Below are positions 57,774 through 64,000 of a stretch of 64,000 nucleotides of DNA, piece by piece. Numbering within the stretch: position 1 is the stretch's first letter; each line of letters opens with the position of its first letter. The position numbers and the translations under genes were made by a program. The notes under the pieces are model-generated. The model had not been told where the DNA came from and ran no database searches. It saw only the letters and a program-made list of their open reading frames with translations. This stretch comes from Cloacibacterium caeni (GTDB lineage Bacteria > Bacteroidota > Bacteroidia > Flavobacteriales > Weeksellaceae): positions 930,001 through 994,000 of the forward strand of contig NZ_OU015319.1 in NCBI RefSeq assembly GCF_907163125.1, written 5' to 3'.

Positions 57774-58448
57774 TTACGAGGTTATAAAACTCCATACTTG
57801 ACCAACGGACACATTAGAGTGATTATCTTTTGCTATAATTTTCCAATAATATTTTGTGTTGGCTACTAATTCTTTAAACTTATAATTAGTTGATGTAAGA
57901 TTTGATTCTGTTAACCTTAAATTGTTAATATCTGTACCTAAATAGAGATCATAAGTAAGAGGATCATTGTCTAAATCTTCACACTTCCAACTCACAGAAT
58001 TATCAACTATAGTACTTCCAAGTGTAGGACTTATAAGTTCTGGAGCAAATGGGGTATGATTTGTTATGGCTAAAGATTCTGTTTGAAACTGAAAAGTACT
58101 GCTCATCATAGAATTTTGAGGGCCTATAGTTTCCACTTTCCATTTATACAATATTCCTTTTTCAAGATTATTAAATGAATAGTTTGTATTTGACGTAGAT
58201 TCTGTATAAACAGTAGTTTCTTTACCGTTCTCTACTTTATTTACGGTTAAGTTGTAACTGGTTGCATTTGTTACGCTTTTCCAAGAGAATGTAATAGGCA
58301 TTTCCATACAGATTTGTTTATCAGATGGTAGCAGTAAAGTGGTAGCTGTTACTAATTTTTTGGGAGTATTTTCTTCTCTATTATCGCTACAAGCTACTAA
58401 GAAAAAAAGACAAAAAAATATAATAATTATAGAAGTATTGTTTTTCAT
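57774..58448 (-). CDS. Lipoprotein with two fibronectin type III-like domains
   Basis: 224 residues. Lipoprotein signal MKNNTSIIIIFFCLFFLVAC followed by an acidic stretch (SDNREEN) that suits surface display. Two FN3-like domains: ITFSWKSVTNATSYNLTV to YKWKVETIGPQN, and PELISPTLGSTIVDNSVSWK to YYWKIIAKDNHSNVSVG. Its ATG overlaps the Kelch gene stop by 4 bases (58445-58448), so the two are made together and probably function together at the cell surface. Ligand unknown. Confidence 0.8.
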   Translation of the reverse strand: MKNNTSIIIIFFCLFFLVACSDNREENTPKKLVTATTLLLPSDKQICMEMPITFSWKSVTNATSYNLTVNKVENGKETTVYTESTSNTNYSFNNLEKGILYKWKVETIGPQNSMMSSTFQFQTESLAITNHTPFAPELISPTLGSTIVDNSVSWKCEDLDNDPLTYDLYLGTDINNLRLTESNLTSTNYKFKELVANTKYYWKIIAKDNHSNVSVGQVWSFITS

Positions 58449-61400
58449 TGCTTAATAATTTTTTTAGTCATTTTTCTATTTTCGGATTCCAACACTAGAA
58501 GGTATGTCCCTGAAGGTTGTTTTTTGATAGAAATAGTTTTGGAGTGATTTTCTTTGATATCATCTTCCATAATCAGTTGACCATTTTGTGAGTATAGAGC
58601 TAGGTGTACCTTTTCATTTAAATGGTTAACAATATTTATCAAATCACTCGTAGGATTTGGAAATATTACGATATCATTTTGGGTAGTAATTAATTCTTTA
58701 ATAATTTTCCCTTCACATGATTTGGACGATTCTAATACAATATTATCTGCAAAATTATCTAGAATTAAATCATAGCTTCCTTTACTGTAAACCGTAATAT
58801 TTTTTTTTCCATAAGTAATGGTAAAAGGTGCTGTACCTGACTGTATCTGAACTTTAGCAAGCCTTCCAGATAGTTCAATTTTTCCCTTTAAATTTTCAGG
58901 TTTTCCGATATTTACTACATAACAATACTGCGTATCATTTGATAATTTAATGCATAGATTATATGTGCCGCCATTCAGGTTATTGAGCGTGACAGATGAA
59001 TTAAAAGACACCCAATTACTTCCATTTAATGAATAGCTGTAAGTATAATTTTCTTTAGAAGTAATTAATATTGCTCCATTATTTTTGGTATCACAAGTTT
59101 CATCTTGTGCAGTAACAGTAAATAAATTAGGTGCGTAATTATTAAAATTTATTCGCCAAACATCATTATATAAATCACCTCCGAAGAAATATAAGTTTCC
59201 TAACTGATCATTCCAAGTTGCAGAATTATACCTATGAGGAGGAAGATTTGTGGGCGAAGAAACATTTATTTGACCATAATTTTTTGGTAATGAAGATTTA
59301 GGACCATACATCCAAGTCCAATTATTTGTATTAATATTATATCTCCATAAATCTAGTTTAGAATAGCTGTCCTTTCCTCCCAAAAACCATAAGTCACCAT
59401 TTTTTCCAGTCCATGTAAATGCATTGGCTCTGTTTCCCGGAAAATTAGTGTCGTTTTCTACTCCAATATTTCCATAATTAAGAGCCGTAAAAGGTATTGA
59501 ACTCCTTACTTTCGTCCATGTATTATTATTGGTTTGATATTTCCACATAATACCAAAAAAATAATACCAAAAATTTTTATTTTCATCTTGCCATCCTATG
59601 CCGCTTTCTTCCTTGGCAATAGGATAATCTTTACTGTTGGTGCTGTTGATTATTTTATCTCCACTTAACCAAACCCATTGATTAAGTGTTATATCATATT
59701 TCCATACATCATTTAGATAACCTCTTTGAGAAGACTTCTCATCAAAGCCATAGCCGCCATAGAGATAAAAATTTCCTTCTTGGTCTACCCAACTCTTGCC
59801 ATCTCTTCTCGCTCCAGGAATATTAGTAATAGAAGAAACGCCTAACGTTCCATAATTAGCAAATGGTTCATCATTTTTTTGTTTGCCCCCTTTCCATACC
59901 CAATTATTAGTTTTTCTGTTATACATCCATAAGTCCTGATGCAATTGATTATCAAAGCTGCCATAATTACCGCCAAAAAGCCATAGATTTCCATTTTTAT
60001 CTATCCATGAAAACGCTTCATTACGAGATCCTGGAGAATTTCTCTTGTCTTCAACATTTAACACCCCATAATCTAAAGAATTATAATTAGAAAAATTGTA
60101 GAAAGAAAAATAGTTTCCTTTAATCCATTGCCATTTTTTTTGAGAAATATCAAACTTCCATAAATCATCTGATCGATACACATATAGGGAAAATCCTTTA
60201 TGGAATGAACCTAGAACCCCATAAAGCCAAAGATTTCCATCTTCATCAGTCCATTTAGCGCCAAAATCTAAGGTTCCGCCTGGTGTATTTTCACTTTCTA
60301 ATAGTCCTGCAAGCTTTTGATAGGTATTTTTATTAACAGAATTAATGTTACTATCTACACCTTTAATCCAAACCCAATTGTTGGTTTGGATATTGTACTT
60401 CCATATAGCATCAATGTTTTTACTACCTTTAAACTGATACAAGTTCCCGTCATTTCCAATCCAACAAGCTGATCCATTAATAGTTCCTGGAAAGTTTTTT
60501 GGATCTTCTACATTTATTGTTCCATAAATTGGTTTTTTATCATCATCGGTAATAATTTTTTTTTGTTTCATTACAGCCCATGAATTTGTAGATATTCTGT
60601 ATCTCCACATGTATTGATTTACAAATATCCAAAAATCACCGCTATTATCTACCCAATGATTAGGTTTTGGATTGTCCAAACTCCAGTCTAATGTATTGGG
60701 TAAATTATTTGGATCTTCTACTCCAATGTCACTTACAATACTTTCTTTACTAGTTAGACTACCTTTTAACCAAGTCCATTGTCCAGTATTCATATTAAGC
60801 TTCCAAAGATCATTTAATAAATAATATTGAGATTTACCATTAAAAAAACCTCCATAAATATATATGTTACCTTGAGAATCTTTAAATGAACATGAACCAT
60901 ACCTTGCACCTGGTGAGTTTAATGAATGCTCCTGACCTAATGTATTATAATTACCAGTAGCATTAGGTTGATCACTTCCTCCAATCCAACTCCACATCTT
61001 CGTAGAAATATTATATTTCCATAATGTATCATATTCTACAGTATTAGATCTATTACTAAGGCCTGTTCTTCCTCCAAAAAGATATAGGTTCCCTTGTTCA
61101 TCGGTCCAAGTTGTTGTATTAATTAAAGCAGGAGGTATATTTGCAATGTCTTCTACGCCTTTCGTTCCAAAATGCCCAGCTCCATCATTAGTAGGTTCAG
61201 ATATTTTAATCCAATTATTGGTTGCAATATTAAATTTCCAGAAATCATTGCTCGCTGTTAAAGAGCTAGTAATCCCTCCAAATTTATATAAATTATTATT
61301 TGAAGTCCAAAATGAAGATAGTGAAACTCCAGAAGGCATATTGCGATAACTCTCTACGTTGATTCCTTTATCAAAACCGTCAGAATCATTATAAGGTCTG

Positions 61401-61681
61401 CCTTTTTTAAACGTAAAATTATTGTTTTGCTTATTGTAGCTCCATAATATACTGCTATAGCTACCCTCACTGTATCCGCCAAACATCCAAAATAATCCCT
61501 CTTTGTCTACTACATAAGACATATCTCTTTGAATACCTGGCCAGTTTTCATCAGAGTCTAGTCCATATAAACCAATTTCTGCAGTTTGTTCAGTTTGATT
61601 TGTACCTTGAATCCAAGTAAAATTTATGTTTTGAGAATAAAGTAATGTACTTAATAAGAGAAAAAATAAACTTTTTTTCAT
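58445..61681 (-). CDS. Large secreted Kelch-type beta-propeller protein with T9SS sorting domain
   Basis: 1078 residues. Signal peptide MKKSLFFLLLSTLLYS, then about 12 repeats of ~70 residues, each containing a variant of W-D-x-x-GNLY(L/I)FGG followed by DLWKYNI-x-TNxWxW. That suggests one long or two stacked Kelch propellers (6-7 blades each). A linker with a SprB-type repeat (CDTKNNGAILITSKENYTYSYS) follows, and the C-terminal ~75 residues (IVIFPNPTSDLINI to GTYLLVLESENRKMTKKI) are a type A T9SS sorting domain. Exported through the Por/type IX system and probably surface-bound or released. Function is not assignable. Confidence 0.85.
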   Translation of the reverse strand: MKKSLFFLLLSTLLYSQNINFTWIQGTNQTEQTAEIGLYGLDSDENWPGIQRDMSYVVDKEGLFWMFGGYSEGSYSSILWSYNKQNNNFTFKKGRPYNDSDGFDKGINVESYRNMPSGVSLSSFWTSNNNLYKFGGITSSLTASNDFWKFNIATNNWIKISEPTNDGAGHFGTKGVEDIANIPPALINTTTWTDEQGNLYLFGGRTGLSNRSNTVEYDTLWKYNISTKMWSWIGGSDQPNATGNYNTLGQEHSLNSPGARYGSCSFKDSQGNIYIYGGFFNGKSQYYLLNDLWKLNMNTGQWTWLKGSLTSKESIVSDIGVEDPNNLPNTLDWSLDNPKPNHWVDNSGDFWIFVNQYMWRYRISTNSWAVMKQKKIITDDDKKPIYGTINVEDPKNFPGTINGSACWIGNDGNLYQFKGSKNIDAIWKYNIQTNNWVWIKGVDSNINSVNKNTYQKLAGLLESENTPGGTLDFGAKWTDEDGNLWLYGVLGSFHKGFSLYVYRSDDLWKFDISQKKWQWIKGNYFSFYNFSNYNSLDYGVLNVEDKRNSPGSRNEAFSWIDKNGNLWLFGGNYGSFDNQLHQDLWMYNRKTNNWVWKGGKQKNDEPFANYGTLGVSSITNIPGARRDGKSWVDQEGNFYLYGGYGFDEKSSQRGYLNDVWKYDITLNQWVWLSGDKIINSTNSKDYPIAKEESGIGWQDENKNFWYYFFGIMWKYQTNNNTWTKVRSSIPFTALNYGNIGVENDTNFPGNRANAFTWTGKNGDLWFLGGKDSYSKLDLWRYNINTNNWTWMYGPKSSLPKNYGQINVSSPTNLPPHRYNSATWNDQLGNLYFFGGDLYNDVWRINFNNYAPNLFTVTAQDETCDTKNNGAILITSKENYTYSYSLNGSNWVSFNSSVTLNNLNGGTYNLCIKLSNDTQYCYVVNIGKPENLKGKIELSGRLAKVQIQSGTAPFTITYGKKNITVYSKGSYDLILDNFADNIVLESSKSCEGKIIKELITTQNDIVIFPNPTSDLINIVNHLNEKVHLALYSQNGQLIMEDDIKENHSKTISIKKQPSGTYLLVLESENRKMTKKIIKQ

Positions 61682-61839
61682 TCAGATAAGGTTATTAGTT
61701 AAAGTCATGCTAAAATAAAAAAATAATTTTTATTCTATTGATGATTTTTATTATGCTACTGATGAGTAATTTTATTACTTTCCGATACAGAAACTTTCTC
61801 TTTACTGGTTGTGGGTGTTTATGAATTTTTAGTATCCAA
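61682..61839. other. Spacer between Kelch gene and unfoldase operon
   Basis: 158 AT-rich bases. I see no perfect -7 box for the Kelch gene and no clear terminator for the AAA+ gene; the two transcripts may run together. Confidence 0.45.
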
Positions 61840-63039
61840 TTAATAATCTATCTCTAAATTTTCATCGTTATCTATAACCGTTTGAGTAATATATTCAACA
61901 AATTTATCCTTTATTTCTTTATTCAAATCACGCATATTTTTGAATTTTGAAACTTCTATTTTACTAACTAAATTATCGTGAGTATCATTTGGAAATTCTA
62001 AATTAAATTTCGTTTCAAATTTATTCATTATTTCCCCTAATCTGTATCTAACAAATTTATCCTTATCGTTATTAAATAATAAACTAAAATGTACTTTATA
62101 ATTAAATCTTGAACGTAATTCTGGAGAAATAACCTTTTTAAAATTCTCTTTAGAGATATTTGAAGTAAAAATAATTGTGTAACCATTCAAATCAATTTCT
62201 TCCCCTTGAGAATTTGTCATTTTACCATTCTCAAGAACTTCTAAAAAATAATTGAATACAGCCGTATCTCCTTTTTCAAATTCATCAATTAGAATTAATC
62301 CAACATCAGATTCTTTCACTTTCTCAAATAATTCTCCTGTTTCACTTCCTACATATCCTCGAGGACTTCCAATTAAAGAGTTTAAAGCATCTTTACTACT
62401 ATAATTTCCAAAATTAATCTTAGCAAGTTTGTTTTTACCTTTTAGGCATTTTTGGAGAACTCTTGCTATTTCGGTTTTACCAACTCCAGAATCTCCCAAT
62501 ACAAACAATGATAAAATTTTATGCTCTCCTAAAGCATTGAATATATTAAACACATTAACTAATTTAAAAAAATCATCTTTAAATTTTTGATGTCCGTATA
62601 ATCTACCATTGAATTCATTCCAAAAATTTTTTAATTCATCCCCTTTTAGATCAATAATTTTTTTCTTTATAAAGGATTTACCAACCCCTATATTTGGTTT
62701 ATTATCTTTCGGTAACTCAATTTCTAAATCTTCAAATTCATCGAAGCAATATCTTAATTCGTATGTTAAAACCTCTTCATATTTTACATCTGCAATAAAT
62801 ATTGTTTCATCTGAAAAAAATGGTAATAGTTGTTCAAGTTGAAACGAAAGATTATCATTTTTAAAAGCAAATGTTAAGGAAGATAAATCTATAATCTCAC
62901 TTTGATAATCAAAATTTTCTAATATATCGTTAGAATTCAAATATTTAGTTATACTATTTATAATATAACCTTTATTAGTCATCATACTTTTATAAGTAGA
63001 AAATTCTTCTTTATGAAAAAAAATAAGTTTCTTACCCAT
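61840..63039 (-). CDS. Single-module HSP100 (ClpB D2-like) AAA+ unfoldase with novel N-domain
   Basis: 399 residues. Residues 1-135 are an alpha/beta domain I do not recognise. The AAA+ module (about 145-390) matches the D2 module of ClpB: YGHQKF, Walker A GDSGVGKT at 182-189, a pore loop SPRGYVGSETG (Tyr229) identical in layout to the ClpB GYVG substrate loop, Walker B LILIDEFEKGD at 248-258, sensor-1 TSN at 292-294, arginine finger PELRSRF at 306-312 and a sensor-2 arginine near 370. All catalytic and substrate-threading residues are present, so it should be an ATP-driven protein unfoldase. There is no first AAA module, no M domain and no ClpP loop. Overlaps the upstream gene by 8 bases. 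Confidence 0.78.
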   Translation of the reverse strand: MGKKLIFFHKEEFSTYKSMMTNKGYIINSITKYLNSNDILENFDYQSEIIDLSSLTFAFKNDNLSFQLEQLLPFFSDETIFIADVKYEEVLTYELRYCFDEFEDLEIELPKDNKPNIGVGKSFIKKKIIDLKGDELKNFWNEFNGRLYGHQKFKDDFFKLVNVFNIFNALGEHKILSLFVLGDSGVGKTEIARVLQKCLKGKNKLAKINFGNYSSKDALNSLIGSPRGYVGSETGELFEKVKESDVGLILIDEFEKGDTAVFNYFLEVLENGKMTNSQGEEIDLNGYTIIFTSNISKENFKKVISPELRSRFNYKVHFSLLFNNDKDKFVRYRLGEIMNKFETKFNLEFPNDTHDNLVSKIEVSKFKNMRDLNKEIKDKFVEYITQTVIDNDENLEIDY

Positions 63040-63913
63040 TATTCACTTCTTGAGGAATATTAACATTTTGAACTATAGCTAACAAATCAATATAATGGTA
63101 ATCTTTTTCATCATCACTGGAAACAAATGGATAAAGATTCTGATTTACATTTGATTCAGTATATTGACTTTCCTGAATTTCATCATCAGTTGAATTAGTC
63201 GTATTCAGATTTTGTAAACTTCCAAGTTCCTGAAAAAATTGGAATGAATTCCTCAAAGTGTTGATTTTGATTTTACCTTTATACAATCCTACTAATGAAA
63301 CTTTTCCTATAAATAAATCATCTACACTATATGAACTTTCAAATTCACTTTCAAAAGATAACGGTATCTTTACTAAAATCTCCTCAATACTATTTTTAAT
63401 TTTACCTTTCATTTTATATGCGTAATCCTTAAGCATAGAATTAAATAAATTGTTTATATCAAATCCTTCTGCTCCAGGTATAGCCATACCTTTAAAACCT
63501 CCATTAGAAAATAATTTTACCGTTCTCAATTCTGCATCATTTTCCAATGATAAATTAACATCATCTACGATTACCAATTCTCCCTCATCAGTGTTTTCAA
63601 AATCAGTTATATTTTTACTCTTTTCTATTATCTCATTTAATATTATTGATTTTGTCGTTTTAATTTCAAATGTTTCTAAAACCTTTTTTGAATCAGAATT
63701 ATTTGATTTTACACCTCCCTCAATCTCTCCACTAAATAACGTTAGAAATTTAGCTCCTAACTTAGTTTTAAGTTCCTTTTCATTACCCTTTTCAATATGA
63801 TTTTCAATTTCTCCTCCGATGGAAATAATGTTACTCAACATCATTTTTATTTCATAGACCTTTGCGAAATTGATATAATAAATATTAAAGATTTTATTTA
63901 ATTGGTTGTTCAT
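63032..63913 (-). CDS. Uncharacterised partner of the AAA+ unfoldase (DUF6414-like)
   Basis: 293 residues, cytosolic, no signal or membrane segment. The opening NIYYINFAKVYEIKMMLSN resembles the first strand-helix of DUF6414 proteins, and the middle (DEGELVIVDDVNLSL) and the FESSYSVDDLFIGKVSLVGLYKG block also fit that layout. I hold this as a weak match, not a call. After residue 230 comes an acidic Asn/Gln-rich linker (NTTNSTDDEIQESQ) and a short folded tail. It is the first gene of a two-gene unit; its stop overlaps the AAA+ start by 8 bases, so the products are likely made in fixed ratio. Confidence 0.65.
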   Translation of the reverse strand: MNNQLNKIFNIYYINFAKVYEIKMMLSNIISIGGEIENHIEKGNEKELKTKLGAKFLTLFSGEIEGGVKSNNSDSKKVLETFEIKTTKSIILNEIIEKSKNITDFENTDEGELVIVDDVNLSLENDAELRTVKLFSNGGFKGMAIPGAEGFDINNLFNSMLKDYAYKMKGKIKNSIEEILVKIPLSFESEFESSYSVDDLFIGKVSLVGLYKGKIKINTLRNSFQFFQELGSLQNLNTTNSTDDEIQESQYTESNVNQNLYPFVSSDDEKDYHYIDLLAIVQNVNIPQEVNNG

Positions 63914-63935
63914 TATTATTAATTTTACATTCCTA

Positions 63936-63943
63936 CAAATTTA
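63936..63943 (-). promoter_or_regulatory. -7 promoter element of the unfoldase operon
   Basis: TAAATTTG on the minus strand, a perfect TAnnTTTG box 22 bases before the ATG at 63913. It shows that the pair is its own transcription unit. Confidence 0.6.
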
Positions 63944-63947
63944 ACTA

Positions 63948-63976
63948 AAAAAGTCCTCTTTAGTAAAGAAGACTTT
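63948..63976 (-). terminator. Terminator of a minus-strand gene lying beyond the window
   Basis: AAGTCTTCTTT and AAAGAGGACTT pair around ACT (one mismatch) on the minus strand, followed by a T run that abuts the unfoldase promoter. Confidence 0.7.
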
Positions 63977-64000
63977 TCCACAATCATCATAAAATCAACA

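Follow-up and report, generated by a model that had tools for sequence, protein, structure and literature searches.

Dodola consists of DolA, a DUF6414 protein, and DolB, a ClpB-like ATPase, and PDC systems are putative defence candidates. Dodola confers broad protection against streptococcal phages by an unknown mechanism; at a non-native chromosomal locus it delays growth, and its knockout abolishes the delay (PMC12322248). Its ATPase has been read from an AlphaFold model as an alpha/beta N-domain, an alpha/beta middle and a helical C-domain, and its partner gave only weak hits to DNA- or RNA-binding proteins (PMC11514479, in which the labels DolA and DolB are apparently swapped in the relevant passage). 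According to a recent survey, single-gene PDC systems originate from a guilt-by-embedding approach (PMC12988326). PDC-M37 has been handled as an unpublished candidate, and in one case the same proteins were called both PDC-M37 and Dodola (PMC11811056). We found no report of phage blocking by any PDC-M37 member, the paper just cited treating it as a candidate.

Here we describe a gene pair in a window of 64,000 nucleotides from Cloacibacterium caeni (contig NZ_OU015319.1, positions 930,001 to 994,000); window coordinates are counted from its first letter. The initial annotation had described this pair as a self-contained two-gene unit that encodes a ClpB-D2-like unfoldase with a new N-domain and an unrecognised partner. 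Both genes lie on the minus strand, the partner first and the ATPase second, among the following features:

61840..63039, minus strand: ATPase, PDC-M37B, 399 aa (open reading frame list and PADLOC)
62716..63039, minus strand: alpha/beta N-domain of the ATPase, aa 1-108 (structure model)
Between the N-domain and the AAA+ module of the ATPase: linker
aa ~125-392 of the ATPase, minus strand: single HSP100-D2-type AAA+ module (Pfam AAA_2, structure alignment)
63032..63913, minus strand: partner, PDC-M37A, 293 aa (open reading frame list and PADLOC)
63032..63039, minus strand: 8-base overlap of both frames (direct open reading frame coordinates)
63936..63943, minus strand: putative Bacteroidota-type -7 box TAAATTTG (direct reading, fits TAnnTTTG)
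63946..63980, minus strand: terminator-like hairpin 5' of the unit (1 found, 0.2 expected)
61776..61792, plus strand: attachment-like site TACTTTCCGATACAGAA, a copy of the mnmE 3' end that bounds the element carrying the pair

The positions of both frames and their overlap agree exactly with the initial annotation, and the overlap likely couples translation of the ATPase to that of the partner. The -7 consensus of Bacteroidota is TAnnTTTG, and TAAATTTG stands 22 nt upstream of the partner ATG. One terminator-like hairpin occurs upstream on the same strand, where shuffling gives an expectation of 0.2, and this hairpin would insulate the two genes. Given the putative box and the hairpin, the unit looks independently transcribed, as had been proposed, and the description of a self-contained unit with its own promoter box and upstream terminator is supported.

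The partner turned out to be recognisable. Using the PDC-M37 models of PADLOC-DB 2.0, we matched the ATPase to PDC-M37B (E 1.5e-151, 503 bits; residues 1-387 on model positions 1-386 of 390) and the partner to PDC-M37A (E 6.6e-111, 368 bits; residues 6-286 on model positions 2-274 of 277). These full-length matches led us to reject the reading of an unrecognised partner. Gene order and adjacency are likewise those of PDC-M37, with no essential difference, and by sequence the window pair is a member of this catalogued candidate class, not a new system. What we add is the link between PDC-M37A and DolA, a contrast in pore loops, a fusion, a duplication of the N-domain, and placement at the edge of an integrative conjugative element (ICE), with defence and toxin-antitoxin genes in a sister strain.

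To the five loci found earlier (Priestia, Halobacillus and Listeria plasmids, and one Bacteroidota genome), scanning 84,980 species genomes with an alignment of the partner added 35, for a total of 40 related loci, which belong to Bacteroidota and Bacillota. The ATPase gene lies directly 3' of the partner gene, or is fused to it, in 39 of the 40, with gaps of -62 to +73 bp, a recurrence far beyond chance. The exception (L022) has no ATPase gene, and at the C-terminus its partner frame no longer follows the rest of the family. In Flavobacterium covae (L032), one fused frame of 674 aa matches both PDC-M37 models in series; such a fusion was seen once. Pairwise identities of the partner and of the ATPase are correlated (r 0.96 over 36 loci and 0.90 over the 27 Bacteroidota loci), a correlation to which shared ancestry contributes. 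Together, adjacency and correlated identities argue for a functional pair; the pairing itself is well supported, and the partner appears as dedicated as the initial annotation had supposed.

The spread of the pair is sporadic: it occurs in 2 of 395 Bacteroidota genomes, this one included, and is absent from all six congeners. Neither viral contigs nor 50,697 phage records contained a relative, and we rejected a phage-borne module on that ground. We also rejected a constant third component, as no third gene recurs beside the pair at the 40 loci. On two Priestia plasmids (L009 and L010, 10023-11504), the gene that follows the pair is intact in one (492 aa) and split into two frames in the other. 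Separately, the PDC-M37A model has matches in the Methanocaldococcus jannaschii control genome, which suggests an archaeal relative.

The ATPase has the complete D2 motor that had been ascribed to it. Its AAA+ module matches Pfam AAA_2 (E 3e-27), and this module is the only part of the pair that Pfam, NCBIfam and PHROGs recognise. The AlphaFold model (pLDDT 85) places this part on ClpB D2 (4fcv_A) with a Z of 22.1 and an rmsd of 2.9 over 254 residues. Walker A (GDSGVGKTE), the pore loop (SPRGYVGS), Walker B (LILIDEFEK), sensor 1 (TSN) and the arginine-finger region (SPELRSRF) are all present. These parts are kept among relatives: in 39 ATPases, Walker B reads DEFEK in every one, and the pore loop has GY in 38 and GF in one. 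We found neither a D1 nor an M domain in the ATPase, and no IGF/LGF motif within its AAA region, consistent with the absences noted earlier. With one P-loop in 399 aa and no such motif, the protein is predicted to work as a motor of one ring, and no dock for ClpP is recognisable in it.

The N-domain (residues 1-108) is non-standard, as had been claimed: no Pfam Clp_N family matches it at E<=10, and the AlphaFold model predicts alternating strands and helices, not an all-helical fold. On these grounds we rejected a Clp_N identity. A PDB sequence search with the N-domain profile gave a best E of 1.1. In the whole-model alignment, N-domain residues fall loosely on the alpha/beta core of ClpC D1 (rmsd ~10 A); this may be no more than a common three-layer arrangement, and we make no case for a relic D1. 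The N-domain outpaces the motor in divergence (mean identity 0.28 versus 0.57). It is present as a tandem duplicate in three loci (L035-L037, with an internal match of E 6e-13 in L035) and apparently, by eye, in L046 too. As a duplicable and fast-evolving module, it would be expected to serve in recognition.

The partner gave no significant match in Pfam, NCBIfam, PHROGs or the PDB; Pfam Tad5, at E 0.057, fell below the cut-off, and the partner profile was uninformative when searched against PDB sequences. We recognised no toxin domain or catalytic motif in it. Its structure model (pLDDT 65, better at residues 81-130, 161-220 and 271-283) has a helical N-terminal part and a C-terminal beta-domain with an OB-like look. 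In a structural comparison, the best 50 rows were all proteins with OB-type domains, among them AsnRS/AspRS anticodon-binding domains, RPA, CST and MCM N-domains. Their Z scores of 6.1-7.5 (rmsd 2.6-7.6 over 79-120 residues) all lie below 8, and by the tool's own yardstick the likeness may be only a common arrangement. Foldseek with the same model gave a best E of 0.14. We regard the OB-like reading of the C-terminal domain as tentative, and nucleic-acid binding by the partner as a lead suggested by the model, not a result. At one locus (L026, 6606-8870), the partner is in one frame with an upstream protein of 464 aa that starts MVKIYIDWNVMSQ; this protein looks PIN-like by eye, and the frame may be a natural effector fusion. 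It has no Pfam match and no relative at the other loci, and we rejected it as a constant third component.

The neighbourhoods of the relatives are rich in defence genes. The initial annotation had proposed scoring them: the 143 genes flanking the relatives (two on each side) match 319 PADLOC models at 1e-10, versus 6 models for 69 control genes from the window and its continuation; given the redundancy of the models and a control taken from a single region of a single genome, this is an indication and not an enrichment statistic. Methyltransferases of types I and II rank among the most frequent matches in the flanks, as do specificity subunits and other PDC families, and Fic is also represented. 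These defence neighbours in common may stem partly from shared mobile elements. In L029, L034 and L021, the pair is bordered by genes of the type I restriction methyltransferase and specificity types, and in L029 it apparently lies between them.

In the window, 47 bp separate the pair from TACTTTCCGATACAGAA. Further copies of this 17-mer lie at G000:C1:1081625-1081641 and 1103450-1103466, each with one mismatch to TACTTTCCGATACAGAA or to its TACTTC form, and the copy at 1,103,450 is the 3' end of mnmE (...NIFSKFCIGK, stop). A tyrosine integrase, RteC and a conjugative-transposon TraN gene are found between the copy at 61776 and that at 1,081,625. The pair would thus be cargo at the edge of a roughly 90-kb conjugative element targeted to mnmE, and the array of attachment-like sites appears to mark elements integrated in tandem, one of about 90 kb and one of about 22 kb. 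In the sister genome G005, DNA to the left of TACTTTCCGATACAGAA is 99.7% identical, compared with ~95.6% for the backbone, and the identity stops at the site. Beyond the same site, G005 carries AbiEi/AbiEii and HipAB (L063, 9745-14622) where the window has PDC-M37. An accessory-type neighbourhood, as initially proposed, is borne out by both the element edge and the flanks of the relatives. To the left of the site, 57774-61681 encodes a 1078-aa protein of kelch-like repeats whose C-terminus carries a sorting-like tail, and a 224-aa lipoprotein-like product; this region shows the same 99.7% identity to G005 over a ~95.6% backbone, and was therefore recently transferred.

We conclude that the pair is probably a two-gene anti-phage module of the PDC-M37 type, whose motor would remodel either the partner or a target that the partner marks. 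The defence role is well supported, and we infer the activity against phage itself. In such a module, M37B would assemble into a single-ring AAA+ hexamer whose GYVG pore loops grip a polypeptide and pull it through. M37A would be its obligate adaptor or substrate, in direct contact with the motor by docking on the N-domain. An infection signal, perhaps nucleic acid or nucleoprotein, would be bound by the C-terminal beta-domain of M37A, upon which the motor would remodel M37A or the object marked by it, and phage production, or the cell, would be halted. In favour of this conclusion we count the full-length PADLOC matches, the motor identity with its intact motifs and pore loop, the non-Clp N-domain, the order and adjacency in 39 of 40 loci, the co-variation and the fusion. 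We also count the homology of the motor to DolB, the remote homology of the partner to DolA, the broad protection that Dodola gives against phages, the defence-rich flanks, AbiE and HipAB in G005, the mobility and the sporadic spread. Against it stand the low confidence of the partner model, the OB-type rows below a Z of 8, the lack of a direct match of the partner to DolA or DUF6414, and the single fusion. A narrower version strikes us as rather doubtful: that the module acts on phage by threading, with a single-ring HSP100-D2 unfoldase, without a protease, working on one dedicated OB-like partner as the sensor of nucleic acid or nucleoprotein from the phage.

Among the three roles that the initial annotation had put forward, context clearly speaks most for phage defence, and nothing points to surface-protein handling. 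The third, toxin control, is the main rival and differs from the anti-phage module only in the role of the partner, which would be a latent toxic effector that the AAA+ protein restrains or activates by remodelling, in an abortive-infection or element-maintenance toxin-antitoxin unit. An overlapping gene pair on a mobile element would fit this, as would the AbiE and HipAB toxin-antitoxin systems at the same spot in G005 and the growth delay caused by Dodola at a foreign locus and relieved by knockout (PMC12322248). However, the partner has no recognised toxin domain or catalytic motif, and it diverges in step with the motor, whereas many toxins swap between modules. The 464-aa domain that shares a reading frame with the L026 partner further suggests that any effector may be a distinct part, and on balance we consider toxin control unlikely.

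Two readings without an anti-phage role fare worse. That the motor keeps its substrate-threading parts, and that the unit has an apparent promoter of its own and resides on mobile elements and plasmids, would suit a chaperone or disaggregase dedicated to a protein of the element or of the host. Yet no constant third gene accompanies the pair at the 40 loci, the neighbours vary but are rich in defence genes, and the homologous Dodola is anti-phage, all of which make such a chaperone highly unlikely. Still less probable is a mobile-element regulator that governs how the ICE or rival elements excise, transfer or are excluded, and not phage infection; the attachment-like site so close to the pair speaks for it, but the relatives sit in unrelated settings (restriction-modification loci, plasmids, beside thrC).

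Compared with the HSP100/Clp proteins, PDC-M37B shares the D2-type AAA+ fold and the motor motifs of the D2 rings of ClpB, ClpC and ClpA, but has one ring instead of two and is without Clp_N, M domain and ClpP loop; it scores 102.5 bits with the full-length ClpB model of NCBIfam, below the cut-off of 1232. The comparison with Dodola is closer. In both systems the two genes overlap or abut and are arranged in the same order, and PDC-M37B shares the domain plan reported for the Dodola ATPase (PMC11514479). DolB is homologous in its AAA+ motor (hhalign E 1.9e-25), and the PADLOC DolB model matches the window ATPase at E 6.2e-28 (model positions 118-373 of 375). The N-domains compare at E 0.026, which leaves their kinship unproven.

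The initial annotation had rated any DUF6414 resemblance of the partner as weak at best, whereas a real remote relationship to DolA emerges through the Bacillota homologues. Neither the DolA model nor DUF6414 (PF19952) matches the window partner, and PF19952 does not match the two Bacillota PDC-M37A homologues tested. The DolA model nevertheless matches Bacillota PDC-M37A homologues collinearly at E 2e-6 (model positions 40-251 of 258) and at E 2e-5 in whole-genome searches. Bacillota PDC-M37A aligned to DolA with hhalign at E 6.9e-5 (probability 63%), and a wider PDC-M37A set gave a weak profile-profile value of 0.0059. Because these model and profile matches come with a homologous motor downstream, we accept PDC-M37A as very probably a remote homologue of DolA. 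PDC-M37 would then be a distant sister of Dodola, with motors that are clearly homologous by sequence.

The two differ in the pore loop. PDC-M37B keeps the aromatic pair (GSPRGYVGS in the window), whereas the corresponding region of DolB is of the FGxxHxxxSLAKDL type and lacks GY in all eight aligned sequences (two of them identical), an absence noted here that lies outside the published definition of Dodola. If both systems work alike, threading may be dispensable in Dodola, or the clades may have diverged in mode. Should the threading reading hold, systems of this kind would have two branches: PDC-M37, which retains the classical aromatic pore loop, and Dodola, which has lost it. As a sister clade whose pore loop is intact and which includes both a natural fusion of partner and motor and duplications of the N-domain, PDC-M37 makes the need for substrate threading in defence by such AAA+ systems testable, and the tie of this candidate to the proven Dodola raises the prior that it is a genuine system.
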